Source: a virus
DNA length: 22,894 nt
Virus record (IMG/VR): IMGVR_UViG_3300047388_000079
Location: 1 to 22,894 of that record
Reading direction: 5' to 3' (one strand)
This document shows, piece after piece, positions 2,817 through 15,890 of the stretch. Under the pieces are notes generated by a model. The model saw nothing but the letters and a program-made list of their open reading frames with translations. It was not told where the DNA came from and made no database searches. The first letter of the stretch is position 1. Every line of letters starts with the position of its first letter. The translations under genes and the position numbers were made by a program.

Positions 2817-4502
2817 ATGGCTGTCGTACTTGAAGTTTCCCTTACCCTGAACCCAAACAACCAGATTGCGTATCTGGCTGACTTTACGTCGCTGATCGAA
2901 GACACTGAGTATATTATAAATGCGACGTATATTGGTTACGACACGCGGTTTGTCTTTCACGGCAACCTGGATATTACCCTTACCAAGCCGCCTATCGGGG
3001 TGCCGGCTTCCGGCACGATAGTCCCGGCGGAGATCAGCACGGTTCCCACGGCGGCGACACCGCCACCACCGCCGACTTATCCGTACTCGACAAAAGACCG
3101 GCTGGTCGCGAGCAACCTCAACATCGACTTTGAGTTTAGCCCTAACACCGTACCGCCGCATAGTTTGCTCGGCGGTGCCGGTAAGTTCAAATACTGGGTT
3201 GATACAAGTACGGCGCTGCCGTCGTTACGGCAGTGCATCGTGCCGCGCGCTTCTACCACTTACACCGCTGCCGAATGGATCTTGTTAGGAACAATAGATG
3301 CAGCTGCTCACAAATTTCATTTTAACGGCGACGTTGTTGATTTTGTTGGCGGTGGCGGTACTAGCAATATTTTTAATGTCACCAACCTCGCAGTAAGCGG
3401 CGCATCAAACTTAACGACACTTAATGTGGCTGGGGCTTCGACGCTGACGACGCTTAATGTCGGCGGTGCGACGACATTGAGCAGCACGCTTGGTGTCAGC
3501 GGCGCGACGACATTGGGCAGTACGCTGAATGTGAGCGGAGCGACGACGCTGGGTACGCTGAACATCAGCGGCGCTACGACGATGACCGGCGATCTGACGG
3601 TGCCGACCATCAATTTCTCGACCTCATCCGGCGGCGCAAACCGTTTCGCCCTAGGGTGGAACGGTGCTCATGTCACGACTTGGATCGGCGGCGTTATTGC
3701 AGGAACCGTGCCGTCTGCGTTGCCAGTGCCGATCGCCGAAGGCGGCACGAGCGCTACTTCTGCCGCAGCGGCATTGGCCAATCTTGGCGGGTTCCCCAAC
3801 ACCGGCGGCACGCTCAACGGCGCTCTAAACGTTAATGGCAACATAACGACCGGCGGCGTGGTTCAGGGGAACTATCTCCACTCGACCGGCTGGGTCGACG
3901 GGACTTATGTCCACTCGACCGGCGCTGTCACTGCGGATGGTACCGTCACAGGAGGCTATCTCCATTCGACTGGACATGTCGATGCAGACGGCATTTTGCA
4001 TGCCGCTGGCGGACAGATGTCTATGGGCAATGGCGGTCTCGGTCGCAGATTGTCGATAGATCCCGGTTGGTATTGGGAGTGGAACAGCAGTAACGGTGAC
4101 CTGATCTGGGGTGGCCCGTCCGGCGCGCAGTTTTGGGTCACGCGGTATTCGGATCGTTACTGCGGCAACCAGATTGGGCCGGTGTTCGGGAATGGGGCGT
4201 ACATAAATTTTTCTGACGCTCGAGGCAAGACCGACATCGCCCCGGCGAAGCAGGGGCTGGACGAGATTATGAAGCTCAAGCCGGTGAGTTTTCGGCGAGT
4301 GCGCGAAGAGGGCAAGGCAGGCGGCGTCGAGCTGGGGTTTACGGCGCAGGATGTTCAGGAGGTTCTGCCGGAAGCGGTGCACCCCCTGGAAGCCGGCGCC
4401 GATCCCCATCTCGGGGTGTCGCTTGATCCGATTGTGGTTAGCCTGGTGAACGCCGTGCAGCATCTGGTGGCTCGCCTTGAGGCTTTGGAAGGGGCCCGTT
4501 GA
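2817..4502 (+). CDS. Tail fibre with C-terminal Peptidase_S74 intramolecular chaperone (561 aa)
   Basis: A receptor-binding fibre or spike. The N-terminal part (residues 1-185) is β-rich with a Pro-rich hinge (ATPPPPPTYP). Residues about 189-261 carry six or so degenerate 11-14-residue repeats (VSGATTLGSTLNVSGATTL), typical of a trimeric β-fibre shaft. Then come PIAEGGTSATSAAAALANLGG and a stretch of YLHSTG/YVHSTG repeats (about 355-390). The last 96 residues match the S74 chaperone: Ser466-Asp-Ala-Arg-Gly-Lys471 gives the Ser...Lys dyad five residues apart, followed by LKPVSFRR, GFTAQDVQEVLPEAV and a closing coiled coil. In this family the trimeric chaperone cuts itself off before the Ser, so the mature fibre would end at Phe465. 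The stop codon overlaps the next ATG. Confidence 0.85.
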   Translation: MAVVLEVSLTLNPNNQIAYLADFTSLIEDTEYIINATYIGYDTRFVFHGNLDITLTKPPIGVPASGTIVPAEISTVPTAATPPPPPTYPYSTKDRLVASNLNIDFEFSPNTVPPHSLLGGAGKFKYWVDTSTALPSLRQCIVPRASTTYTAAEWILLGTIDAAAHKFHFNGDVVDFVGGGGTSNIFNVTNLAVSGASNLTTLNVAGASTLTTLNVGGATTLSSTLGVSGATTLGSTLNVSGATTLGTLNISGATTMTGDLTVPTINFSTSSGGANRFALGWNGAHVTTWIGGVIAGTVPSALPVPIAEGGTSATSAAAALANLGGFPNTGGTLNGALNVNGNITTGGVVQGNYLHSTGWVDGTYVHSTGAVTADGTVTGGYLHSTGHVDADGILHAAGGQMSMGNGGLGRRLSIDPGWYWEWNSSNGDLIWGGPSGAQFWVTRYSDRYCGNQIGPVFGNGAYINFSDARGKTDIAPAKQGLDEIMKLKPVSFRRVREEGKAGGVELGFTAQDVQEVLPEAVHPLEAGADPHLGVSLDPIVVSLVNAVQHLVARLEALEGAR

Positions 4503-4708
4503 TGGATACCAACCAGGAAATACCGCTGACGCTCACGGCGGGCGACGCTAGTATTTTACTTCAGCTGCTTAACGAGGCGCCTTATCGGGTCGCCGCGCCG
4601 CTGATTGACAAGATGCGGCGCCAGATCCTAGCGGTTGACCCGACTGCCTTTGATCCAGTCGTGGGGCAGGCGCAACCCAACGGACATTTACAGGAGATCC
4701 CGCGATGA
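4502..4708 (+). CDS. Small conserved-type phage protein (68 aa)
   Basis: The start is the ATG at 4502, overlapping the upstream TGA; its own stop overlaps the next ATG at 4705. The sequence reads LTLTAGDASILLQLLNEAPYRVAAPLIDKMRRQI, a β-strand then helix-turn-helix shape that I recall from many short phage proteins in structural modules ('L...D...IL..L...PY..V..LI.KI..Q'). No enzyme motif or membrane segment is visible. The C-terminal third is a loose Pro/Gln tail. Function is unknown; it could be a fibre-associated factor or a host-takeover protein carried in the late operon. Confidence 0.65.
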   Translation: MDTNQEIPLTLTAGDASILLQLLNEAPYRVAAPLIDKMRRQILAVDPTAFDPVVGQAQPNGHLQEIPR

Positions 4709-4926
4709 ATGGAACCTATGACAAGCACGGTCTTACGAACACCGCCCATAACACCGGTGGCGGCGGCAGTAAGTCGTTACCCCAACAACCGATCCCCGGT
4801 CCGGAAAATCCCGGCCCGCCGGCGTCCATGAGGAAGGCGCTGGCCAAGAAGAGCGGCAACTCCACTACCGGTAGTGGGCCTGGCCTGCCTAATCGTAACA
4901 CTAGCTTTCCAGGGAGTGTCCGATGA
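4705..4926 (+). CDS. Unrecognised disordered Gly/Pro-rich small protein (73 aa)
   Basis: I do not recognise this protein. It is low in hydrophobic residues, with a Gly run (NTGGGGSKS), a Pro stretch (PIPGPENPGPPAS), a short basic helix (MRKALAKK) and a Ser/Thr/Gly tail, so it is probably unstructured. Both ends are tightly coupled to neighbours by ATGA overlaps, which supports real translation. Its Ser53-Thr-Thr-Gly-Ser-Gly segment is encoded by one copy of the dispersed palindrome (4862-4877). The gene may exist partly as a vehicle for that element; this is inference. Confidence 0.5.
   Translation: MNGTYDKHGLTNTAHNTGGGGSKSLPQQPIPGPENPGPPASMRKALAKKSGNSTTGSGPGLPNRNTSFPGSVR
4862..4877. repeat. 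Dispersed palindrome copy 2 (CCACTACCGGTAGTGG)
   Basis: A perfect 16-bp palindrome inside the 73-aa gene. It is read as Ser-Thr-Thr-Gly-Ser-Gly. It is identical in its 16-bp core to the copy at 16107-16124 and is read there in the same frame. Confidence 0.9.
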
Positions 4927-5126
4927 GCCTCGGCAAGGACCGGGTCCGCGCCGGGTTTAACCCGAGCGGCGATCAGCGGGTCGAGAGTATCAAATCCTTG
5001 AGCGCCCAGCTGATCGACATCTGTGAAGATTTGAAGCCGCTCGATCCGAGGCTGGCCGCGCTGGCGCAGACTGCCTACGAGGAAGCGGCGATGTGGGCTG
5101 TCAAGGCTGCGACAACTAGCAAATAG
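4923..5126 (+). CDS. Acb2/Tad1 hairpin-like protein, candidate cyclic-nucleotide sponge (67 aa)
   Basis: A small helical protein. After a short lead (MSLGKDRVRAGFNPSGD) it forms two long helices: residues about 18-36 (QRVESIKSLSAQLIDICED) and about 45-65 (LAALAQTAYEEAAMWAVKAA), joined by a KPLDPR turn. The 'I...A..L...CE.L....RL.ALA.T..EEAAMWAVKA' pattern is what I know as the Acb2/Tad1 hairpin domain (formerly DUF7681). Characterised members bind cyclic di/trinucleotides or cyclic-ADP-ribose-type signals and blunt CBASS or Thoeris immunity. The Tyr-Glu-Glu-Ala-Ala-Met-Trp-Ala core is the strongest evidence. Activity in this protein is not shown; related small proteins occur widely in phages without a tested role. 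The start overlaps the upstream stop (ATGA). It is an early-type function carried here in a late operon, which is unusual but precedented. Confidence 0.65.
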   Translation: MSLGKDRVRAGFNPSGDQRVESIKSLSAQLIDICEDLKPLDPRLAALAQTAYEEAAMWAVKAATTSK

Positions 5127-5136
5127 GAGAATTACC

Positions 5137-5787
5137 ATGCCTGCGCCTTATCAACACGCTTCCGACTGGATCCCCGGAGTACCGACACCCTTCTCGGGGG
5201 TGATCCGCGTCGCCGATGGTAAGTGGATCGCCTGCGCCGCCGACAGCCCGGAGTGGGAGGAGTATCTGACTTGGGCGGCTACAGACCCGGCGAACGTTCC
5301 GGACCCGTATCTGGCGCCCGCCGCCGGCGGCGTGACGGTCGTTCCTGCGCAGGACGAGGTGCTCTACGGTGCGGCGGTCGAGTCACTGCCGCCGGCCGGG
5401 CAGCCGGTGATGAGCACCGTGCCGGCAGTTACGGTCAACGACGCAATCGGCACATCTGCGGTCGTCGGCGATACGCTGAAATGCACCATGGGCGAGTGGG
5501 AGGGCGAGCCTACTTCGTATCAGTATCGCTGGATCAACGAGCTTATGACGGATCTTTCCGCCGGTGATACTTACATCGTCGCCGGTTCCGATGTCGACCA
5601 TAGCGTATGCTGCGTCGTCACTGCGACCAATGCTGGCGGGTCGACCACGTCAGCACCGTCCAACGCGGTTGCTGTCGCTGCCCCGGTAGAAGGGACGGTG
5701 GAGACTACCGGGTCACGTCGCGAGTACCTGAAGGCGGAGGTAGAGGAGCCTCACCGGCGCTCGCACCATAAGAAGGAAGAGGAATAA
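5137..5787 (+). CDS. Ig-like domain virion protein with small fibre-companion N-terminus (216 aa)
   Basis: Preceded by a clear AGGAGA ribosome site. Residues about 20-50 (VIRVADGKWIACAADSPEWE..YLTWAA) match the core of two small proteins further on, at 11873 and 14043 ('R.ADG.FIP.D..N.DYQ.YL.W'). Residues about 93-182 form a bacterial/phage Ig-like domain: GDTLKCTMGEWEGEPTSYQYRW, then ADG-type turns, CCVVTATNAGGSTTSAPSNAV. Such domains often sit on virion surfaces and bind glycans weakly. The tail (residues about 190-216) is strongly charged (EVEEPHRRSHHKKEEE). I infer a surface decoration or fibre-associated protein. The fusion of the companion module with an Ig-like domain is seen directly from the alignment by eye. 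Confidence 0.65.
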   Translation: MPAPYQHASDWIPGVPTPFSGVIRVADGKWIACAADSPEWEEYLTWAATDPANVPDPYLAPAAGGVTVVPAQDEVLYGAAVESLPPAGQPVMSTVPAVTVNDAIGTSAVVGDTLKCTMGEWEGEPTSYQYRWINELMTDLSAGDTYIVAGSDVDHSVCCVVTATNAGGSTTSAPSNAVAVAAPVEGTVETTGSRREYLKAEVEEPHRRSHHKKEEE

Positions 5788-5937: not shown

Positions 5938-7680
5938 TTGGTCGCATGGACGATCAAAGCCATGGGGGGCATGATCCCCCGCACCGACGACGCTCTGCTG
6001 GGAGACAGCCAGGCGGTCGAGGCGATCAACTGCGACCTGAGCTCGGGCTCGCTGGTTGGGCTGCCGGAAGTATCTTTGATCGTCGACCTGTCGAGTACCC
6101 CTGGCTCGGTAGAGCGCGCCTACCGCCTTCCTGGGCCGGTGGACACCACCGATCCGCCTATCTGGCTACCTCTGCCCTCGCGCTACAGCTCGGTCGTACG
6201 CTCGCCGATAGCGAACGATACTGGCGATCGGGTCTACTGGACAAACCCCGGTGACATACACCCCTGGTGGACGACCTACGCTCGGTTGTCCGCCGGTCAG
6301 CCGGCTTATAACCTCGGCACGCTGCGGCCCACCCAGAAGCCTGTCGTTTCGGCTTCCGGCGGCGATACGACCGTACCGGAGATCGAGCGATCTTATACTT
6401 ATACATATATTAATCTTTACGGCGAAGAGAGCGCGCCGTCGCCGCCGAGCGATGTTGTGGCAGGGGCGCCCGACGCTACCTGGACGGTTACCAACCTGCC
6501 GACTGCCATACCGGCAAACCCATCAGATGGTAACTACCCACCGATCGTAACCCTGAGATTATACCGTACGATCACCAGCAGCCAGTCGGGCGCGCAGTTC
6601 TACATGGTGACCGACTTAGCCATGCCGACTTCTGGTACCTATGTCGATAGTGTAGGCGACCAGAACGTCGCAAATAACGGCGTGCTCGAAGCGGTCGGTT
6701 GGGAAAACCCGCCGGATTACCTTGACGGTCTGACTTCGTTGCCCGGTGGTATTCTGGTCGGGTTCACGGGCAATACGGTTCATTTTTGTGAACCCAACCG
6801 GCCGCATACCTGGCCAATTGGTTACGACCAGTCGGTGCATTATAATATCATTTCGCTCGCCAGCTGGCAGCAGTATCTGATGGTGCTGACCACGGGTTAC
6901 CCGTCCACCGGGTCGGGTAATGTGCCGGGTAATTTCATCCTGGTTCAGTCACAAGTTCCTGAGCCTTGCATCTCGCGCGGGTCGGTGGTCACCGATCTGA
7001 CGGCGGTTTATTACGCCAGTCAGAACGGCCTGGTGCAGCTTTCCGGTTATGGCATTCAGAACCAAACCCTGCTTATGGTCGAGAAGAACGACTGGCTTAA
7101 TAGGTTTCATGCCGAGAGCATCATCGCTTGTCGCCATCGCTCGCAGTATCTCGCGATCAATAATACGAACAGTGCGTTTTTGGTAGACTATACCGAGCCT
7201 CGGCTTGGGTTTGGCGACTTGAGTACCTTTCAGGATGTGGTGTGTATCTGGAATGACGAGTACACTGGCGAGACTATGTTATGTGCTAATAAGAAAATAT
7301 ATTTGTGGGATGACCCGGATACTCCGCATGTAACTTATCGCTGGCGGTCGAAGCGGTTTTTTACCCCCGTTCCGATAAGCCTTGGTGCAGCGCAAGTAAC
7401 TTTGGGCACCACTGTTTATGATACGTTTCCGCCAGGCACTCCGTTGCTGAGTAACGGCGACACTACGGTAGTGTTACCCGCTGGAATAAACGCGGTGTTT
7501 AACTTATACGCCGGGCCAAAACTTGATCTTATCATGACGCGTAACCTCGTAGAACAGCAGGAGATATTTAGATTACCAAAAGGTTTTAAGGCGTTCGACT
7601 GGCAGTGCGAGATCGTCGCACGGGTTAAGATATCTTCGATCCAGCTCGCGACGACGCTGGCGGAGTTGAAGGGTGTGTGA
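5938..7680 (+). CDS. Podovirus tail structural protein, nozzle-like (580 aa)
   Basis: The start is TTG at 5938, directly after the previous stop. I prefer it to the ATG at 5962 because the lead WTIKAMGGMIPRTDDALL is part of the family's usual opening ('W.I..m.G..PR.....L....A..A.NC.L.SG.L'). The rest is β-rich throughout: SPIANDTGDRVYWTNPGDIHPW near residues 83-105, YTYINLYGEESAPSPPSDV near 155-173 (a fibronectin-like strand), and TSLPGGILVGFTGNTVHFCEPNRPHTWP near 268-295. This is typical of large podovirus proteins that I recall as tail nozzle or tail-hub components; a β-propeller-like platform is possible. Thr509-Thr-Val-Val is encoded by dispersed palindrome copy 3. An alternative is a plain virion-associated structural protein of unknown site. 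Confidence 0.6.
   Translation: MVAWTIKAMGGMIPRTDDALLGDSQAVEAINCDLSSGSLVGLPEVSLIVDLSSTPGSVERAYRLPGPVDTTDPPIWLPLPSRYSSVVRSPIANDTGDRVYWTNPGDIHPWWTTYARLSAGQPAYNLGTLRPTQKPVVSASGGDTTVPEIERSYTYTYINLYGEESAPSPPSDVVAGAPDATWTVTNLPTAIPANPSDGNYPPIVTLRLYRTITSSQSGAQFYMVTDLAMPTSGTYVDSVGDQNVANNGVLEAVGWENPPDYLDGLTSLPGGILVGFTGNTVHFCEPNRPHTWPIGYDQSVHYNIISLASWQQYLMVLTTGYPSTGSGNVPGNFILVQSQVPEPCISRGSVVTDLTAVYYASQNGLVQLSGYGIQNQTLLMVEKNDWLNRFHAESIIACRHRSQYLAINNTNSAFLVDYTEPRLGFGDLSTFQDVVCIWNDEYTGETMLCANKKIYLWDDPDTPHVTYRWRSKRFFTPVPISLGAAQVTLGTTVYDTFPPGTPLLSNGDTTVVLPAGINAVFNLYAGPKLDLIMTRNLVEQQEIFRLPKGFKAFDWQCEIVARVKISSIQLATTLAELKGV
7460..7474. repeat. Dispersed palindrome copy 3 (ACACTACGGTAGTGT)
   Basis: A 15-bp palindrome with a central G inside the 580-aa tail gene, read as Asp-Thr-Thr-Val-Val-Leu. 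Its half-sites CACTAC/GTAGTG match the other copies. A second nested pair, GTAAC (7451-7455) and GTTAC (7473-7477), could extend pairing. Confidence 0.75.
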
Positions 7681-8945
7681 TGCGCGGGCGCGGCAGTAAT
7701 ACGTTTGGCAGTATTACGGTCAACGGGGTTTCGGTAGGGAACCACAACCCGGCCTCGAACCCGTTCACGCCGCCGATCCCGCAGCCAGCTGCCAACGTAG
7801 ATAATCTAGCGGCCTGTGTGGCTGCGCTGAAAGCCTGCGTTGAGAGTTTAATAGGCCAGCGCGGCGACGCGTCTAACCGGGCGGTGACGTTTAACGATCT
7901 TGTGGATTATGAATTGCTCTCGCCAACCGCCGTGGCCAGCCCTACCGGCAAAGCGGATTTCGCTGGCGGTGGCGGTGGTGGGACCGTTGAGACTATTGGT
8001 AGTAAAGTTACGACCGACGATACTCCGCCCCCCTCGCCTGCGGACGGCGATATGTGGTGGGACAGTGGGGATATCAGCGGCGGTCAGCTCTATGTCTGGT
8101 ACGACGACCCCAGCGCCGATGCCGGTCAGTGGGTAGTAGCTGTTAACCAGGCGTCGGGCTCGCCGGGTCCGCCGGGACCGGCTGGCCCACCTGGCAGCGG
8201 CGGTGGCAGCACCATCCTCGACGGTGCGGGACCGCCCAGTCTCGCTCTTGGGGCGGACGGCGATTACTATGTCGATAGCGTTGGTCAGGATCTCTATGGG
8301 CCGAAAGAGGCTGGCGGCACGGATTACGCGGCCGAAGAAAGCGTTCAGTCGTCGCCTGTTATAAATCATAACTTTGCCGGACCTTATAGAGTAGGCAATG
8401 AGATAAAGTTTATTGTCGCGGGGCAGATTACCAAGGGCAGATTTCACCGCAACAGTGGTTCGGCGACAACTTCGCGGTCAATGTATTTGTACAATACTGC
8501 CGGGACGCTGGTTGCCACGTCTAATCCAACGGTGGCGGAAATCGGCACCGGATGGGTGCAGGTAACATTTCCGTCGCCAATCCCGGTTGCGGCGGGTTCC
8601 AGCTACGTAATTAGCTATGATGCTCTTGATGTTTTCGATTATGCCAGTGTAGGGCCGCCTCTCACTAATGCAGCACATGCGACGTGGACTATTGGAAGAT
8701 ACGGTTCCAGTGGTTCATTTCCTTCCGGTACTGTTGACGGCACCAATTATGCGGCCGATGTCATCTGGCAACCGATGATTTTCGTAGGCGCATCATGGCC
8801 GCTTGCGGTTCCTGGCGAAAGTGGCACGGGCGGCGGCGGCATTCCCGAAGCTCCGCTTGATGGCGTCGCCTATGGACGGCAGAGCGCCGCCTGGACGCAT
8901 GTCCTGATGGCGACTAACGACATAGTCGATGGGGGGAACTACTAG
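7680..8945 (+). CDS. Tail fibre with collagen-like stalk and DUF4082-like domain (421 aa)
   Basis: The start is the ATG at 7680, overlapping the previous TGA. Order: residues about 113-153, a 'DTPP.SPADGDMWWDS....LYVWYDDPSADAGQWV' module shared with three later fibre genes; residues 159-173, a short collagen-like Gly-X-Y stalk (SPGPPGPAGPPGSGGG); residues about 228-366, a jelly-roll stretch resembling DUF4082 (ITKGRFHRNSG, YNTAGTLVATS, GWVQVTFPSPIPVAAGSSYVISY, FPSGTVDGTNYAADV). DUF4082 is a carbohydrate-associated adhesin-like domain in bacterial surface proteins, so this is a good receptor-binding candidate. The mRNA can form a 7-bp stem just after the start codon (7696-7717). Confidence 0.7.
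   Translation: MRGRGSNTFGSITVNGVSVGNHNPASNPFTPPIPQPAANVDNLAACVAALKACVESLIGQRGDASNRAVTFNDLVDYELLSPTAVASPTGKADFAGGGGGGTVETIGSKVTTDDTPPPSPADGDMWWDSGDISGGQLYVWYDDPSADAGQWVVAVNQASGSPGPPGPAGPPGSGGGSTILDGAGPPSLALGADGDYYVDSVGQDLYGPKEAGGTDYAAEESVQSSPVINHNFAGPYRVGNEIKFIVAGQITKGRFHRNSGSATTSRSMYLYNTAGTLVATSNPTVAEIGTGWVQVTFPSPIPVAAGSSYVISYDALDVFDYASVGPPLTNAAHATWTIGRYGSSGSFPSGTVDGTNYAADVIWQPMIFVGASWPLAVPGESGTGGGGIPEAPLDGVAYGRQSAAWTHVLMATNDIVDGGNY
7696..7717 (+). promoter_or_regulatory. Small stem-loop at the start of the DUF4082 fibre gene
   Basis: GTAATAC (7696-7702) can pair with GTATTAC (7711-7717) around an 8-nt loop, beginning 14 nt after the start codon. It is AT-rich and modest in strength. An effect on initiation is possible but not shown. 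Confidence 0.3.
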
Positions 8946-10357
8946 TGGCTGACACCCTACGCATCAAGCGGCGTACCTCGGGCGCGCCCGGCGCGCCGGC
9001 TAGCTTGGCCAACGCGGAACTGGCTTATAACGAGGTCGACCATATCCTGTATTACGGCGAGGGTACGGGTGGCGCGGGCGGTACTGCGAGTGTAACACCT
9101 GGTATCGGCGGGCAGGGGATGTCGGCGGTAGCGACGCCGACGATGAATGGTATTGGCGCGGCAGGTGTTGCGACGAATTGGTCGCGCGGCGATCACGTCC
9201 ATCCTAGTGACACTTCCCGAGCGCCGATAAATTCACCGACCTTCACTGGTGTACCTTTAGCGCCGACCGCTGCTCCCACGACAAATACGACGCAACTGGC
9301 AACGACGGCATTTGTCACTGCTGCGGTGACAGCGGGATCGGCGGGTGTTGCTAGCTTTAACACCCGCACCGGCGCGGTTGTTCAGCTCCTCGCCGACATC
9401 ACCGGGGTCGGCGGCGCACCGATCGCCAGCCCGACTTTTACCGGTGTGCCGGCCGCTCCGACCCCAGCCAACGGCACGAACACGACGCAGCTCGCGACGA
9501 CCCAGTACGTCATGGCGCAGCGCCTCGACCAGTTTGTCGCGCCAAATGTCGATGTGAGCTGGAACACTCACAAGATCACCGGGCTGCTCGATCCCACCAA
9601 CGCGCAGGACGCGGCGACTAAGAATTACGTCGATGGGGTGGCGCAGGGGGTCGACGCCAAGGCGAGCGTGCGGGTGGCGACAACTGCTAACCTTGCCGCC
9701 CTATCGGGTCTTCTGACGGTCGACGGGATAACGGTCGCCGGTGGTGACCGGGTGCTGGTCAAGGACCAGACAACGCAATCGGCGAACGGAATTTATGTCG
9801 CAGCCGCCGGCGCTTGGGCGCGGGCGTTGGATGCCGACACCTGGGCCGAGCTGCCCTCGGCTTTTGTGTTTGTCGAAGTCGGTTCGGCCAACGCCGACAG
9901 TGGCTGGCTGTGCACCGTCGACGCGGGCGGCACGCTGGGAACAACCAACGTCACCTGGGTGCAGTTCAGCGGTGCTGGGCAGATCACGGCAGGCGCCGGG
10001 CTCACAAAGACTGGCAACACGATCGACGCGGTGGGCACCGCCAACCGCATCCTGGTCAATGCCGACAATATCGACATCGCCGCGACCTATGTCGGGCAGT
10101 CTTCGATCACGACGCTGGGCACCGTTACGACGGGTGTGTGGAACGGTACGACGGTTGCGGTTGCCAATGGCGGCAGCGGCGCGGCGACGTTGACCGGCTA
10201 TCTCAAAGGCAATGGTGTTGCGGCGTTTACCGGCGTGGCGACAATTCCCAACACCGACATCACCGGTCTCGGCACGATGGCGACGCAGAATGCAAATGCG
10301 GTTGCCATTACCGGCGGTACGGTTGACGGCGTGACCTTTGACATGGGTACGTTCTGA
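8945..10357 (+). CDS. Modular tail fibre (470 aa, GTG start)
   Basis: The GTG at 8945 shares its first base with the upstream TAG. Residues 1-40 form an anchor (MADTLRIKRRTSGAPGAPAS, then NAELAYNEVDHILYYGEG) also used by the next gene. Then GDHVHPSDTS, two copies of SPTFTGVPxAPTxxxxTNTTQLATT (about 98-120 and 162-185), WNTHKITGLLDPTNAQDAAT (about 206-225), and a GDRVLVKDQTTQSANGIYVA domain (about 265-290). The C-terminal third is of the type 'GTVTTGVWNGTTVAVANGGSGA'. These are standard phage fibre shaft modules that vary by shuffling. There is no recognisable tip or chaperone domain: the protein ends ITGGTVDGVTFDMGTF in mid-motif, which suggests the receptor tip was lost or lies in a partner protein. 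Confidence 0.75.
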   Translation: MADTLRIKRRTSGAPGAPASLANAELAYNEVDHILYYGEGTGGAGGTASVTPGIGGQGMSAVATPTMNGIGAAGVATNWSRGDHVHPSDTSRAPINSPTFTGVPLAPTAAPTTNTTQLATTAFVTAAVTAGSAGVASFNTRTGAVVQLLADITGVGGAPIASPTFTGVPAAPTPANGTNTTQLATTQYVMAQRLDQFVAPNVDVSWNTHKITGLLDPTNAQDAATKNYVDGVAQGVDAKASVRVATTANLAALSGLLTVDGITVAGGDRVLVKDQTTQSANGIYVAAAGAWARALDADTWAELPSAFVFVEVGSANADSGWLCTVDAGGTLGTTNVTWVQFSGAGQITAGAGLTKTGNTIDAVGTANRILVNADNIDIAATYVGQSSITTLGTVTTGVWNGTTVAVANGGSGAATLTGYLKGNGVAAFTGVATIPNTDITGLGTMATQNANAVAITGGTVDGVTFDMGTF

Positions 10358-10674
10358 TGGCTGACGTGCTGCGCATCAAGCGGCGTGCAGTTGGCGGCGC
10401 GGCAGGACCGCCGGCGGCATTGGCGGCGGCCGAGATTGCTTATAACGAGCAGGATGACACGCTGTATTACGGCAAGGGCAACAGCGCCGGGGCGGCGACC
10501 TCGATTGTGCCGATCGCCGGGACCGGTAGTTACCTGCCGCGCATCACGATCAGCGACACCGCGCCGGTTACTCCGGCGGTAGGCGACCTGTGGTTCGACA
10601 GTGTCGGCAGTAATTTATATATCCGGTTCAATGACGGTACCTCGACCCAGTGGGTTCCGGTCATAGCCCGATGA
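10357..10674 (+). CDS. Fibre anchor 'stub' (105 aa)
   Basis: The start ATG overlaps the upstream TGA. Residues 1-40 repeat the anchor of the preceding fibre almost residue by residue (MADVLRIKRRAVGGAAGPPA, AEIAYNEQDDTLYYGKG). Residues about 65-102 are a degenerate version of the 'DT.P.TP..GDLWFDS....LYI.FNDG....WVPV' module found in three other fibre genes. It then stops, with no shaft and no tip. It is either a working adaptor that caps an anchor site or accepts another fibre, or the remnant of a fibre whose C-terminus was replaced. The intact overlaps on both sides favour an expressed protein. Confidence 0.65.
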   Translation: MADVLRIKRRAVGGAAGPPAALAAAEIAYNEQDDTLYYGKGNSAGAATSIVPIAGTGSYLPRITISDTAPVTPAVGDLWFDSVGSNLYIRFNDGTSTQWVPVIAR

Positions 10675-11873
10675 TTGATTTTCCCAACAGCCCAACACTT
10701 GGTCAGATATTCTCCGCTGCCGGTGCGAACTGGCGGTGGGATGGCGTCAAGTGGGTCTATTATTCTGCCGGTGGCAGCAGCATAACAGTGAGCGATACGC
10801 CGCCGGTCAGCCCTACAGCCGGTAGCATGTGGTGGGACTGTGTCGGCGGGCAGCTTTATATTTGGTATGACGATCCCAGTGCCGACCCTGGTCAGTGGGT
10901 TGCCGCTACTAATTCACCTGGGCCGGTAGGACCGCAGGGTGTACCCGGTACGCGCAACCTGCTGCATAACTCGATGTTCAACGTGGCGCAGCGCGGCGCG
11001 GGGGCGTTCGTAACGAGTGGCGTATATACCGCTGATCGCTGGCAAATGGTGCTTAGCGTTAGCTCTCTGTCCATTACGGTTGTCGCGCTCGCGGATGCCG
11101 ACCGTACCGGTATCGGCGACGAAGCGGCGGTATCGTCTTTACAAAGTGTCGTTGGGGGAACCGCCGGCGCAGGCGATCTGGCGTTCTTTGTTCAGTCGAT
11201 TGAAGGTGTGCGGCGCACGGCTGCGAAGACGGTAACGCTGAGTTTCTATGCCAAGGCGAACGCCGGCACGCCCAAAGTAGGGCTTAACTGGGCGCAGGGT
11301 TTCGGTACTGGAGGTTCGCCCAGCGCTCAGGTGAATGGGTCGGCGCAGGCGGTGACGCTCTCGACAAGCTGGGTGCGTTACACCGCGACATTCGCTATTC
11401 CATCGGCGGCGGGTAAAACTCTCGGCACGGCGGCGAATGACAGTCTCGCAATCTATTTCTGGCTGTCATCGGGAGCGACCAACAATACCCTGGCTGGCGG
11501 TATCGGGGTGCAGAGCTTCACCTTGCAGATATGGGGCGTACAGCTCGAAATCGGCTCGGTCGCGACCGCTTTAGAGAAGCCCGATCCGCGTTACGATCTG
11601 GCGAATTGTCAGCGGTTTTATCAGACCGTAGTCTGTGGTGCCCGGAATTACTTCAGCGCTACGCCTTCCAGCGTTTCTGCGCCGTCTTCATGGCCGACGA
11701 TGCGAGCAACCCCGACCACTGCGCTCGTCACGGCGGGGATCAATGCGAACACCGGCGGCACCTATACATTGAATGCAGCCTATCCGAATGGGGGATATTT
11801 CAACTTTGTCGGGTCGACGACGGGTGACAGCTATGCGCTAAATTATCTTTTTAGCTTATCGGCGGATCTGTGA
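10671..11873 (+). CDS. Tail fibre with jelly-roll carbohydrate-binding-like domain, paralogue A (400 aa)
   Basis: The start is the ATG at 10671 inside the upstream stop (ATGA). Residues 1-30 are the anchor MIDFPNSPTLGQIFSAAGAN then WRWDGVKWV. Residues about 40-80 are the WWD/LYIWYDDPSADPGQW module. A short GPVGPQGVPG stalk follows. Residues about 95-310 are a β-jelly-roll typical of phage receptor-binding proteins (NLLHNSMFNVAQRGAG, YTADRW, KTVTLSFYAKANAGTPKVGL, TSWVRYTATFAIPSAAGKTLG, IWGVQLEIGSVATALEKPDP), followed by NCQRFY and a C-terminal tail ending FSLSADL. The fold resembles CBM_4_9-type carbohydrate modules. The gene at 13001 is a clear paralogue. Confidence 0.8.
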   Translation: MIDFPNSPTLGQIFSAAGANWRWDGVKWVYYSAGGSSITVSDTPPVSPTAGSMWWDCVGGQLYIWYDDPSADPGQWVAATNSPGPVGPQGVPGTRNLLHNSMFNVAQRGAGAFVTSGVYTADRWQMVLSVSSLSITVVALADADRTGIGDEAAVSSLQSVVGGTAGAGDLAFFVQSIEGVRRTAAKTVTLSFYAKANAGTPKVGLNWAQGFGTGGSPSAQVNGSAQAVTLSTSWVRYTATFAIPSAAGKTLGTAANDSLAIYFWLSSGATNNTLAGGIGVQSFTLQIWGVQLEIGSVATALEKPDPRYDLANCQRFYQTVVCGARNYFSATPSSVSAPSSWPTMRATPTTALVTAGINANTGGTYTLNAAYPNGGYFNFVGSTTGDSYALNYLFSLSADL

Positions 11874-12052
11874 TGGCGCAACCATACCAACTCGTCGCAA
11901 CGCTCCCCGGCACGGCGCTTCAGATCGTGCAGCGCATCGCGGACGGCGCATTTATTCCGTTCGACCCTGCCAACCTTGACTATCAGGAGTACCTTGATTG
12001 GCTGTCTAAGGGTAACCAGCCCGACGCTGCAGAGGCTTATAATGGCAATTGA
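11873..12052 (+). CDS. Small fibre-companion protein, copy 1 (59 aa)
   Basis: Begins MAQPYQLVATLPG. The core 'QRIADGAFIPFDPAN.DYQEYLDWLSKGN' is nearly the same as in the protein at 14043 and is recognisable in the N-terminus of the Ig-like protein at 5137. Both stand-alone copies directly follow a jelly-roll fibre ending SLSADL, so the pair behaves as a unit. I recall this short domain from many phages next to fibre genes; a fibre chaperone or tip cap is plausible but unproven. The start overlaps the upstream TGA by one base, and its end overlaps the next gene by 11 nt. Confidence 0.7.
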   Translation: MAQPYQLVATLPGTALQIVQRIADGAFIPFDPANLDYQEYLDWLSKGNQPDAAEAYNGN

Positions 12053-13004
12053 TTACCCGGCTAGTCCGGTCCTTAACCAGATATTCACCGCTGCCGGTGC
12101 GAGCTGGCGCTGGGACGGCACGAAGTGGGTTGTTAGTGGTACGGGTTCAGGTGGCAGTATAACTATTGGTGATACGCCACCGGCTTCGCCGACTGCCGGG
12201 TCGGGTTGGTGGGACTCTACCGATGGGCAGCTTTTTATCTGGTATGTCGATCCGGTTGGGCCAGGGCAGTGGGTTCCGGCGACTAACCAGTCCGGTGTGT
12301 TTCCTGTGCCGTTGCCGATCGCGCAGGGCGGCACCAACGCCGCGACGGCGCCAGCCGCGCTAACCTCGCTCGGTGCGGTCGCCAAGGCCGGCGACACGAT
12401 GACCGGCGCGCTGACAGTGTCCTCCGGCAATATCACTACTACGACCGGCAGCTTTGTCATGGCGGCAACGGGCGGCCTGTTCAACGGCGCGAACGCCGTG
12501 ATTAAGGGCGCGGCGGTTGGGGGTTATACGGTGGTCTGTGACAACACCGGGTTTAATTCGATCTCGCTCGGCCCGAGTGGCGACCAGTCGAACTATTACG
12601 ATCAGGGCGCGCATCTCTTTCGCAGCCGCGCCTCCGCCCAGTGGATGCAGATCAACAGCATCGGGACCTACAATGTCTCGGGGAGTTGGCTTACTCTCTC
12701 CGACCCGTTGCTCAAGGAAGATGTCACCGCCTACACGCGCGGCCTCGAAGCGCTCTGCCAGCTCAATCCGGTGACATTCCGCTATGTAGCCGGCTCCCCG
12801 TTCGCCGCGCCTGAGCCCAGAGATCCGTTGATCGGGCTACTGGCCGATGAGGTTGAGCCGCACATGCCGGAGCTGGTCGGTGAGTACACCGACGACAAAG
12901 GCCACACCGTCGCGACGCTGGCGCCGGGTAATCTGGTGTATGCGCTGATCAATGCGGTCAAGGAACTCACCGCCCGCCTCGAAGCAGTCGAGGCTAAATT
13001 ATGA
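12042..13004 (+). CDS. Tail fibre with Peptidase_S74 chaperone domain (320 aa)
   Basis: The start is the ATG at 12042 (MAIDYPASPVLNQIFTAAGA then SWRWDGTKWV), overlapping the previous gene by 11 nt; an upstream in-frame start would run deep into that gene and disrupt the anchor match. Residues about 43-80 are the WWD/LFIWY module. Then PLPIAQGGTNAATAPAALTSLGA (shared in style with the 561-aa fibre) and a short shaft. From Ser220 the S74 chaperone begins: Ser220-Asp-Pro-Leu-Leu-Lys225, LNPVTFRYV, IGLLADEVEPHMPELV, and a terminal coiled coil (LINAVKELTARLEAVEAKL). By family knowledge it should self-cleave before Ser220 after trimerising. The receptor-binding part, residues about 130-219, is short. 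Confidence 0.8.
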   Translation: MAIDYPASPVLNQIFTAAGASWRWDGTKWVVSGTGSGGSITIGDTPPASPTAGSGWWDSTDGQLFIWYVDPVGPGQWVPATNQSGVFPVPLPIAQGGTNAATAPAALTSLGAVAKAGDTMTGALTVSSGNITTTTGSFVMAATGGLFNGANAVIKGAAVGGYTVVCDNTGFNSISLGPSGDQSNYYDQGAHLFRSRASAQWMQINSIGTYNVSGSWLTLSDPLLKEDVTAYTRGLEALCQLNPVTFRYVAGSPFAAPEPRDPLIGLLADEVEPHMPELVGEYTDDKGHTVATLAPGNLVYALINAVKELTARLEAVEAKL

Positions 13005-14041
13005 TTGATTTTCCTAGCAGTCCCAGTATCGGCCAAATCTTTACCGCTGCAGGTTGTTCGTGGCGCTGGAACGGCGTCAAATGGGTTGCCAATACGCCGG
13101 CGGCGGTTCCGGCGAATGATATCGGGCGCAACTTGATCCACAACCCGATGTTTAATGTGGGACAGCGCGGCGCGGGGCCGTTCACGGTGAATGGCTACAC
13201 GGCGGATCGCTGGGGGATCGTGGGAGTCGGCGGCGACACATTCAATGTGTCCAGAAGCGTATTGAATGATACTCAACGATCCCAGATCGGCGATGAAGCA
13301 GCGGCGTTTTGTTTACAAAATACAGTTACCGGAACTGCTGCTGCGGGGGCCGGCACATTTGCGTACCAGGCTATCGAAGACGTTCGGCGTTTAGCAGGCA
13401 AGACGATAACCGTCAGTTTTTGGGCTAATACTGGAACCGGCCTGCATGTTGGCGTTTCGTGCAGTCAAGTTTTTGGCACTGGTGGTTCGCCGTCACCTAC
13501 TGTCAACGTCAACGGGCAGTCTTTTACGTTAACTGGTACATGGACCCGTTACAGTGCTACATTCACCTTGCCGAGTGTTTCGGGTAAAGTGCTCGGCACC
13601 AACAACGATCACAGCACCACGCTTTATTTTTGGTATTCGGCGGGCGCGAATTTTGCCGTGCAAGCCGGCAGTCCCGGCGTGCAATCCGGTATCATCAATC
13701 TATGGGGCGTGCAGCTCGAAATCGGCAGCACCGCAACTCCGCTCGAAAAGCCCGACCCGCGCTACGATTTGAGTAATTGTCAGCGGTTTTATCGTGTCAC
13801 CCAGGTTCAAGGCGGGGGTTATGCTGTTGCAGGAACCGTCGTGCAAGCCCAGGGGCACGCTCCCGTTACCATGCGCGCCCAGCCTACAATGGTGGAAACA
13901 AGCGATGGCAGCAGTAATTTGGGGACTGCGGGTTATGCAGCAACCAATCCCGGTGTTGGAAATGTCACGATAACGGCGACTGCTCCCGCAACAGGCCAGT
14001 GGTACATGAACAAATTGTTTTCACTTAGCGCGGATCTGTGA
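13001..14041 (+). CDS. Tail fibre with jelly-roll carbohydrate-binding-like domain, paralogue B (346 aa)
   Basis: The ATG overlaps the upstream TGA (ATGA). The anchor MIDFPSSPSIGQIFTAAGCS/WRWNGVKWV is followed directly by the jelly-roll (NLIHNPMFNVGQRGAGP, GYTADRW, IWGVQLEIGSTATPL type block near 235-250, then NCQRFY). It lacks the WWD module that its paralogue at 10671 has. Conserved blocks alternate with diverged loops, as expected for receptor-binding paralogues under selection for different glycans. Its last residues FSLSADL are the same as in paralogue A, and the same companion gene follows. Confidence 0.8.
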   Translation: MIDFPSSPSIGQIFTAAGCSWRWNGVKWVANTPAAVPANDIGRNLIHNPMFNVGQRGAGPFTVNGYTADRWGIVGVGGDTFNVSRSVLNDTQRSQIGDEAAAFCLQNTVTGTAAAGAGTFAYQAIEDVRRLAGKTITVSFWANTGTGLHVGVSCSQVFGTGGSPSPTVNVNGQSFTLTGTWTRYSATFTLPSVSGKVLGTNNDHSTTLYFWYSAGANFAVQAGSPGVQSGIINLWGVQLEIGSTATPLEKPDPRYDLSNCQRFYRVTQVQGGGYAVAGTVVQAQGHAPVTMRAQPTMVETSDGSSNLGTAGYAATNPGVGNVTITATAPATGQWYMNKLFSLSADL

Positions 14042-14042
14042 C

Positions 14043-14234
14043 ATGGCGCAACCCTATCAGCTTGTTCCAAATCCGCTTGGTGGAGAACCAAATACGGTCT
14101 TGCGAGTTGCTACTGGAGAGTTCATCCCGTTCGATCCGGCCAACAAAGATTATCAAGATTATCTCGAGTGGGTCGAGGCTGGCAACCAAGCCGATCCGCC
14201 CCCGGAGCCCATCGGAGTTACTGATGCCACGTGA
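14043..14234 (+). CDS. Small fibre-companion protein, copy 2 (63 aa)
   Basis: Begins MAQPYQLVPNPLGGEPNTVL and has the core 'RVATGEFIPFDPANKDYQDYLEWVEAGNQ', nearly identical to the protein at 11873. It has a short Pro/Glu-rich tail. It starts two bases after the stop of jelly-roll fibre paralogue B and ends 11 nt inside the GNAT gene. The role is inferred from position only: fibre folding, capping or attachment. Confidence 0.7.
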   Translation: MAQPYQLVPNPLGGEPNTVLRVATGEFIPFDPANKDYQDYLEWVEAGNQADPPPEPIGVTDAT

Positions 14235-14682
14235 AATCCTGATCGACGCACCGGGTGCCGGTACGTGGATCATGGACCGCTGTCAGGGCGTGTTTCGCCA
14301 AGACATGGATCACTCGTTTAGCACCCATGATGACAGTGGTAAAATCCTGGGCGGGTTTGTTTTATGTCAGTATCTCGGCGCTAGCATGTCGGTGCACATG
14401 GCCGGCGAGGATAAGCATTGGTGCAACCGGGAATTACTCTGGCTGGTGTTTCACTATGCCTTTGTACAGCTCGGATGCACGAAGATGATAGCGCCGGTGC
14501 AGTCTGATAATTACGCCGCGATCTCGCAGGATCTGCGTGCTGGTTGGCATCTCGAGACTGTGATCCGCGATGTCTACGCTCCTGGCGTCCACATGATGGT
14601 TCTGACCATGGCGAAGGACACTTGTCCGTGGCTGGACTACAAGCCTAAGACATGGATGCCTAACGTGAAAAGGATCGCCTGA
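14224..14682 (+). CDS. GNAT-fold acetyltransferase-like protein (152 aa)
   Basis: The start is the ATG at 14224 (MPREILIDAPGAG), overlapping the previous gene by 11 nt. The pattern fits the small GNAT-like proteins found in podovirus structural modules: central strands (KILGGFVLCQYLGASMSVHMAG), a helix RELLWLVFHYAFVQLGCTKM, IAPVQSDNYAAISQDLRAGW (the usual 'N..A......GF' motif of the AcCoA fold), and a final strand VHMMVLTMAKDTCPWL. The classic Q/R-x-x-G-x-G/A loop for CoA is not evident, so it may have lost catalysis or bind differently. Target unknown; protein or small-molecule acetylation or a purely structural role are all open. Confidence 0.7.
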   Translation: MPREILIDAPGAGTWIMDRCQGVFRQDMDHSFSTHDDSGKILGGFVLCQYLGASMSVHMAGEDKHWCNRELLWLVFHYAFVQLGCTKMIAPVQSDNYAAISQDLRAGWHLETVIRDVYAPGVHMMVLTMAKDTCPWLDYKPKTWMPNVKRIA

Positions 14683-15890
14683 TGGGTAAGCCTTCAGTCC
14701 CGGCGGCGCCCGACTACACACCCTTTATCCAGGCGTCGCAGCAGACAGCCGCTGCTGACTCGCACGCCGCTGATCTACAGTTTCAGCTTGGCGAAGACAC
14801 GCTGAAAAAACAGGATGCGTACGCCCAGCGATCCGCCGATGTCGGCGATAAGTATTACCAGATGGCGCAGGACTCGGCGCAGTGGGGCAGAGACCAGTTT
14901 AATACCGTATGGCCTTACGCCCAGGATTATCTAAAGCAAGAGACCGGGGTCGCGACTGAGCAAAACAAGGAAGCGGCGGATACCTACGCCCGGTACATGA
15001 GTACCTATGCGCCGCGTGAGGACCAGTTTGCCCGGGAGGCTTTTGGCTGGGGTTCGCAGGCGCGCCAGGACGAAGCTGCCGGCGCCGCCAAGGCCGATGT
15101 GGCGAGCGCGTTCCAGCAAACCCAAGACGCCGCCAAGCGAAGCTTGATGAGCTACGGTGTCGACCCCTCGCAGGGTCGGTTTGCCGCGCTGGCCGATGTC
15201 GGGAATTATCAGCAAGCCGCTGCGTCGGCGGCGGCTGGCACGACGGCTCGAACCCAGGCTGAGCTGCAAGGCAAGAGCCTCGAGGAGACCGCGCTGCAGA
15301 TCGGCCAGAAACTACCGGCGCTGGGGCTGGGCCAGTTACAAGCGGGGTCGGGTGCCGGGGCGGCGGGGCTCGGCGGCGCGAACCAGGCGATCGGTACCGG
15401 TGTCCAGAGCGGTGGATCGCCGACGGCTTATGCCGGGTTGAGTAATCCCTATACGCAGCTGGCCGGTTCTTATGGCACGGTCGGTGGCAGCCTTTTTGGT
15501 GGTGGCACGTCGGCGCTCGGCAATATATCCAGTGCGATCAGCGCCGGCGCCGGGGCGATGAACAGCGGGTTCAGTAACCAGATGTCGGCGTACAACGCCA
15601 AATATGCGCAGCAGTCGGATTTGTGGGGCGGCATTGGTAAGATAGTTGGCATGGGTGCGGGCTTTGCGATGTCCGATCGTCGTCTTAAGGAAGATACCAA
15701 AGTCGTCGGGCATGTCGGAGCTTTGCCGTTGCATACGTTCCGTTACCGCGACGATCCTGCCCATGCTCTCCATGTCGGCTTTATGGCCGATGAAGTTGAA
15801 CAGGTCGATCCCGGCGCCGTGCACACCGTAGCGTTGCCCTTCAAGGCAGTTGACTACAACCGGGCAGTAGCCTCGGCGTTGCGATTGTAG
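14682..15890 (+). CDS. Internal virion / ejection protein with C-terminal S74-like motif (402 aa)
   Basis: Rich in Ala, Gln and Gly. Residues about 10-210 are helical and coiled-coil-like (YAQRSADVGDKYYQMAQDSA and many similar heptads). Residues about 215-325 are Gly/Ala/Ser-rich with glycine-zipper-like spacing (SLFGGGTSALGNISSAISAG), suited to membrane insertion during ejection. The last about 72 residues start Ser331-Asp-Arg-Arg-Leu-Lys336 and contain HTFRYRDDPAHALHVGFMADEVEQVDP and VDYNRAVASAL, a shortened Peptidase_S74 domain. I know this architecture from podovirus internal virion proteins. Whether it self-cleaves is unclear because the domain is about 30 residues shorter than in the fibres. 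The start overlaps the GNAT stop. Confidence 0.7.
   Translation: MGKPSVPAAPDYTPFIQASQQTAAADSHAADLQFQLGEDTLKKQDAYAQRSADVGDKYYQMAQDSAQWGRDQFNTVWPYAQDYLKQETGVATEQNKEAADTYARYMSTYAPREDQFAREAFGWGSQARQDEAAGAAKADVASAFQQTQDAAKRSLMSYGVDPSQGRFAALADVGNYQQAAASAAAGTTARTQAELQGKSLEETALQIGQKLPALGLGQLQAGSGAGAAGLGGANQAIGTGVQSGGSPTAYAGLSNPYTQLAGSYGTVGGSLFGGGTSALGNISSAISAGAGAMNSGFSNQMSAYNAKYAQQSDLWGGIGKIVGMGAGFAMSDRRLKEDTKVVGHVGALPLHTFRYRDDPAHALHVGFMADEVEQVDPGAVHTVALPFKAVDYNRAVASALRL

Follow-up and report, generated by a model that had tools for sequence, protein, structure and literature searches.

A candidate Acb2-type sponge gene inserted as a single open reading frame among the late genes of an uncultured tailed phage

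The 67-aa open reading frame at positions 4923 to 5126 probably encodes an Acb2-type sponge that would bind the cyclic nucleotides of CBASS, a reading to which we give a probability of about three in four (0.76). The window, i.e., the whole stretch of 22,894 bases from an IMG/VR record, covers part of the late genes of a tailed soil phage; we recognized genes for the capsid, a tail fibre, an internal virion protein, fibre-like proteins, and a transglycosylase (Table 1). The protein family is already known; the single-gene insertion by which the gene reached its present place is demonstrated here by comparison with near relatives.

Table 1. Features of the sponge region and of the surrounding late genes (window coordinates)
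Feature	Position	Strand	Remark
Major head protein, phrog_267, PF25209	9..782	+	
Tail fibre with S74 chaperone domain	2817..4502	+	
69-aa gene	4499..4708	+	4-nt overlap with gene 4705-4926
Upstream gene, 73 aa, Gly/Pro-rich	4705..4926	+	Left flank of insertion; stop overlaps sponge start by 4 nt
Ribosome-binding-like AGGGAG	4911..4916	+	6 nt 5' of sponge ATG, within 3' end of upstream gene
Candidate sponge gene, Acb2-type	4923..5126	+	67 aa, PF24729
Insert of 200 bp with a single ORF	4925..5124	+	Relative to the empty site of L234, L235, L236, L238, and L239
F12 codon	4956..4958	+	Corresponds to T4 Vs.4 Y8 and PaMx33 Y11, base stacking; PF24729 register, alignment A5, PMC10097602
K24 codon	4992..4994	+	Corresponds to Vs.4 K23 and PaMx33 K26; hhalign A1 versus A4, alignment A5
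R43 codon	5049..5051	+	Invariant in 35 relatives; aligned to PaMx33 R67
Signature helix AQTAYEEAAMWAVK	5064..5105	+	Contains A48, A55, A59, and K61
Downstream gene, 216 aa	5137..5787	+	Right flank of insertion
Internal virion protein, phrog_511	5938..7680	+	Query for finding near relatives

Assignment of the protein (start codon ATG; translation MSLGKDRVRAGFNPSGDQRVESIKSLSAQLIDICEDLKPLDPRLAALAQTAYEEAAMWAVKAATTSK) to the Acb2/Tad1 family, as proposed in an earlier note on this DNA, was borne out by a match to the Acb2/Tad1 hairpin profile PF24729. The match covered 57 of the 58 profile positions with a score of 53.2 bits (E = 3.3e-14), twice the curated cut-off of 27 bits. PF24729, and no other Pfam family, was also matched by all 35 aligned relatives (63 to 75% identity), and the sequences of T4 Vs.4 and PaMx33 Acb2, taken from the respective genomes, matched it over its full length (positions 1 to 58). 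Profile-profile comparison with the PaMx33 family by hhalign gave a probability of 93 (E = 3.4e-7), and comparison with the T4 family aligned the signature helix, in which MWAVKA of the window protein faces MWACRA of Vs.4. Identity to the tested sponges is only about 10 to 25%, and the match to phrog_717, the PHROG containing the Vs.4 homologues (PMC10097602), was weak (E = 0.0013). Searches of the PDB with phmmer and with the profile of the window family (A1) gave no significant match, the T4 Vs.4 structure 7uq2 being aligned correctly at E = 0.14. The mixed profile A5 matched Acb2 and Vs.4 strongly by construction, because it includes both, and its only independent matches were 9ptq (E = 4e-4) and the Tad1 structures (E = 0.016). 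NCBIfam has no corresponding model. Membership in the Acb2/Tad1 hairpin family is well supported by sequence and predicted topology, and sponge function is likely by analogy.

The IMG/VR database contains 397 relatives of this one protein, which places a tested family of counter-defence proteins in uncultured phages that are abundant; the subfamily of the 67-aa sponge is itself abundant in metagenomic phages. Acb2 was earlier described as relatively rare and confined to specific phage groups (PMC11722364). The 22-aa signature block was compared among 55 distinct DNA sequences, revealing 3843, 1549, and 18772 differences at the first, second, and third codon positions, respectively (a 3.5 to 1 ratio of third to first plus second), and 17475 synonymous versus 2621 non-synonymous codon differences. 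This excess of third-position differences indicates that the 67-aa protein is under purifying selection. The record of one relative (L077) contains a second PF24729-like match (G021:C1:45262-45432, - strand) located ~4.5 kb from the first on the same contig, with a score of 22.8 bits that is below the cut-off.

The cGAMP contacts of Vs.4 are Tyr8, His11, Lys23, Arg79, and Phe82, and its hexamer requires Leu29, Ala66, Ala73, and Ala77 (PMC10097602). All three alanines are kept in the window protein, as A48, A55, and A59, respectively. Four of the five named cGAMP contacts differ, two of them conservatively, namely, F12 for Tyr8 and K61 for Arg79 (Arg85 in PaMx33), and Lys23 is kept as the identical K24. 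The replacement of Tyr by F12 entails loss of the hydroxyl, Tyr8 of Vs.4 both stacking on and hydrogen-bonding cGAMP. His11 and Phe82 are not kept, T64 occupying the position of the latter, and PaMx33 Acb2 also lacks both residues, with Leu and Ala88 in their places. Thus, the main pocket positions F12, K24, and K61, ligand contacts of the kind to which the earlier note had drawn attention, are kept or conservatively changed, and they are invariant or nearly so in the 35 relatives. The profile alignment to the PaMx33 family pairs K24 with K26, R43 with R67, T50 with T74, and K61 with R85; T50, like R43, is invariant in the relatives. PaMx33 Acb2 (gp24; PDB 8h2j and 8h2x) resembles the window protein in its PF24729 domain, its hairpin of two antiparallel helices, and these aligned residues, but it comprises 93 aa, the 67-aa protein having a shorter hairpin with Phe for Tyr11 and Lys for Arg85. 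A further solved member, Acb2 homolog 43 (PDB 9ptq), is similarly short (76 aa) and shows Arg and Thr at the equivalent positions, although it is only a weak sequence match obtained with the mixed profile. The kept and conservatively replaced contacts make a cGAMP pocket plausible in the 67-aa protein; its specificity is not readable from them.

The same positions bear on the possibility that the protein is an Acb2-fold sponge acting mainly on other signals, such as the cA3 common to type III CRISPR and NucC, rather than on the dinucleotides of CBASS. Acb2 has a distinct binding site for trinucleotides (PMC12043709), the invariant R43 and T50 align with R67 and T74 of PaMx33, and Phe replaces the Tyr of the dinucleotide pocket. 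The positions of the dinucleotide pocket are likewise conserved, however, and we consider a sponge devoted mainly to such other signals unlikely.

The AlphaFold2 model, based on 35 sequences, has a pLDDT of 93.5 and consists of a short N-terminal helix (residues 3 to 7) and two long antiparallel helices (residues 18 to 37 and 43 to 64), with nothing else. This topology is the Acb2 architecture (PMC12043709, PMC10419184), and the two-helix hairpin proposed from the letters alone is predicted with high confidence. Among the predicted viral structures of BFVD, the top matches were "Acb2/Tad1 hairpin" proteins (probability of 1.00; TM scores of 0.75 and 0.79). Foldseek with the window model returned no solved Acb2 from the PDB, in a search that is insensitive for a 67-aa hairpin, and Foldseek plus VIA-align returned only generic helical hairpins, which is no evidence of absence for so short a query. 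In a control search of the PDB by Foldseek, the model of PaMx33 Acb2 retrieved 8h2j and 7uq2. The C-terminal hairpin is common to Tad1 (PDB 7uav, 8smd, and 8kbe), whose structures were weakly matched in the PDB profile search (see above), and a Tad1-type sponge for the glycocyclic ADPR signals of Thoeris had to be weighed accordingly. Tad1 has an additional N-terminal domain formed by an antiparallel beta-sheet, and loops of its protomers contribute to the gcADPR pocket (PMC12043709), whereas the 67-aa model is all helical and the beta-sheet domain is absent from it. This absence indicates that the protein is of the Acb2 type rather than of the Tad1 type, and a Tad1-type sponge is improbable. 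The initial proposal of an Acb2/Tad1 sponge directed against CBASS or Thoeris is therefore narrowed to its Acb2-type, anti-CBASS part, the anti-Thoeris part being unlikely for a 67-aa hairpin that has no beta-sheet domain.

The sponge gene belongs to a series of genes (4499-4708, 4705-4926, and 4923-5126) that overlap at their starts and stops by 4 bases, and its stop codon is contained in TAGGAG (5124-5129), a ribosome-binding-like motif of gene 5137-5787. These overlaps imply translational coupling, and, together with the capsid, tail fibre, and internal virion protein genes, they uphold the description of the locus in the earlier note as a translationally coupled virion cluster. The gene order of the window is common to seven contigs, whose capsid proteins are 74 to 83% identical. 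In five of these near relatives, with capsid identities of 78 to 83%, the genes flanking the sponge gene are adjacent and the sponge gene is absent. Joining the window flanks at 4924/5125 produces an alignment with L238 that continues across the junction, the empty site of L238 reading ...GGTTCGAT-AGGAGGTAAGC-ATG and the filled site of the window reading ...GTCCGAT-(200 bp)-AGGAGAATTACC-ATG. The insert comprises little more than the ORF itself, and the ribosome-binding-like motif that it uses sits in the upstream gene. No promoter-like or terminator-like site was found on the + strand of the insert, and no Rfam RNA was found in the sponge region. The empty-site comparison illustrates how a counter-defence gene gains entry to a virion operon, as one ORF that borrows the translation signals of its neighbours, and the position of the gene is explained by gene gain.

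Two further Acb2-family subtypes are present in near relatives (L241:5245-5481, - strand, and L240:402-596), both matching phrog_1454 ("unknown function"), which may deserve annotation as Acb2-like. One of the two, of about 64 aa (YRALS type), lies in L240 between the portal-like gene and the scaffold/capsid genes, and the other, of about 71 aa (FEYLKPT type), overlaps the terminase gene at its end in the L238 genome. Because three subtypes occupy three places in one clade, the pattern is that of counter-defence gene turnover and would be difficult to explain for a component of the virion. A small protein of the virion or of its morphogenesis that happens to form a helical hairpin would fit a gene sitting in a coupled structural operon, with relatives that often adjoin terminase, portal, or capsid genes. 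This explanation is nevertheless distinctly improbable, since the structural neighbours persist in the five syntenic relatives that lack the gene, relatives in other phages occupy early or replication regions, and the PF24729 match is family specific. The empty site in near relatives likewise makes a structural role unlikely and weighs against the virion association that had been suggested; carriage of the sponge within the virion, for which no support was found, is highly improbable. We therefore regard the sponge gene as an accessory counter-defence gene rather than as a virion part. A repurposed hairpin that has lost nucleotide binding would account for the low identity to tested members and for the four differing Vs.4 contacts, but is most improbable in view of the near invariance of F12, K24, and K61, the strong purifying selection on the signature block, and the fact that the two non-conservative positions differ in the tested PaMx33 Acb2 too.

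Around the 80 best relatives, essentially none of the other genes of the window were found, indicating that the sponge gene moves separately from the genes that now surround it. The relatives form 23 groups without common neighbours. Terminase, portal, capsid, tail, virion, or lysis genes were among the scanned neighbours in 14 of the 23 groups, one of which also includes a locus adjoining genes for a Cas4-type exonuclease and a helicase; an integrase was a neighbour in one group, and eight groups gave no functional assignment. Some prophage relatives in Bacteroidota and Alphaproteobacteria have portal, minor head, and terminase genes as neighbours. In the Pseudomonas Beetreviruses JBD67 and vB_Pae-SS2019XII and in the cyanophage Lsp-JY19 of Leptolyngbya, homologues of the PaMx33-like subtype are located in a late head operon just 3' of the capsid gene region, with a start that overlaps the preceding stop, whereas the window gene comes after the tail fibre gene, at a greater distance from the capsid gene. 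The location in a virion cluster had been considered odd for an immune antagonist, a view that is contradicted by these three phages and by the relatives beside head and packaging genes in many metagenomic phages. Other placements were also observed. The gene lies in an early or middle region in the Flavobacterium elemo phages and in Enterobacter phage EcP1, and the PaMx33-type homologue of Strzyga is beside DNA polymerase and helicase genes. Unlike the window gene, PaMx33 acb2 does not share the strand of the structural genes but lies on the other one, and the Vs.4 gene is clustered with regB, vs, tk, and denV, in no head or tail operon. A terminase gene was found within 2 kb in 7 of 11 records counted singly, but in only 3 of 7 independent lineages. 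Since PHROG annotation also favours structural genes, the late bias is a pattern rather than a proven excess. Late placement of Acb2 genes is thus common, neither odd nor universal. Separately, seven contigs (L093 and L095 to L100) of one Rhodobacteraceae metagenome-assembled genome (CATOSB01) share one Acb2-like gene, which points to a multicopy (transposable?) prophage or to a mixed bin.

An Acb2-type sponge of 67 aa would assemble as a hexamer and bind the cyclic di- and/or trinucleotides made by the CBASS enzyme of the host, which would be kept from the suicide effector rather than broken down. Judging from gene order, the gene would be transcribed with the capsid and fibre genes, because it is a single-ORF insert with no recognizable promoter in a late structural operon. 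The output of the sponge might then coincide with capsid synthesis, i.e., with the time at which the signal is made. Direct activation by a capsid protein is established for a staphylococcal Thoeris system (PMC11312562), and capsid mutations let phages without acb2 evade CBASS (PMC10419184). We hypothesize that the supply of the sponge is timed to the signal, because the capsid triggers one Thoeris system and is genetically implicated for CBASS. The broader proposal that late head and packaging operons of unrelated phages have repeatedly taken up Acb2-type sponge genes as single-ORF inserts without promoters, tying sponge dosage to capsid production, is tentative and somewhat less than even in our estimation; it draws on the three subtypes at three late positions in one soil-phage clade. 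It predicts that late-operon sponges are timed to capsid synthesis. The locus also serves as a warning that a position between virion genes is no ground for annotating small genes as structural.

Sulfitobacter phage phiCB2047-B encodes a 188-aa protein, SUFG_00048 (L111:5605-6171), in which an RyR domain (PF02026) is fused to a PF24729 hairpin and whose gene adjoins that of thymidylate synthase. Degradation or sequestration of cADPR signals by phage RyR proteins was recently demonstrated in a report that makes no mention of the hairpin, Acb2, or Tad1 (PMC13232231). SUFG_00048 is a possible two-signal counter-defence protein. In the window itself, an S74 chaperone domain is encoded at 14682-15890 in addition to that of the tail fibre (2817-4502), and positions 7677-14234 contain a run of fibre-like genes with the repeated module IGQIFTAAGxSWRWxGxKWV. 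Small DYQEYLxW proteins encoded at 11870-12052 and 14043-14234 resemble the N terminus of the product of gene 5137-5787, and the run probably consists of paralogous adhesin cassettes.
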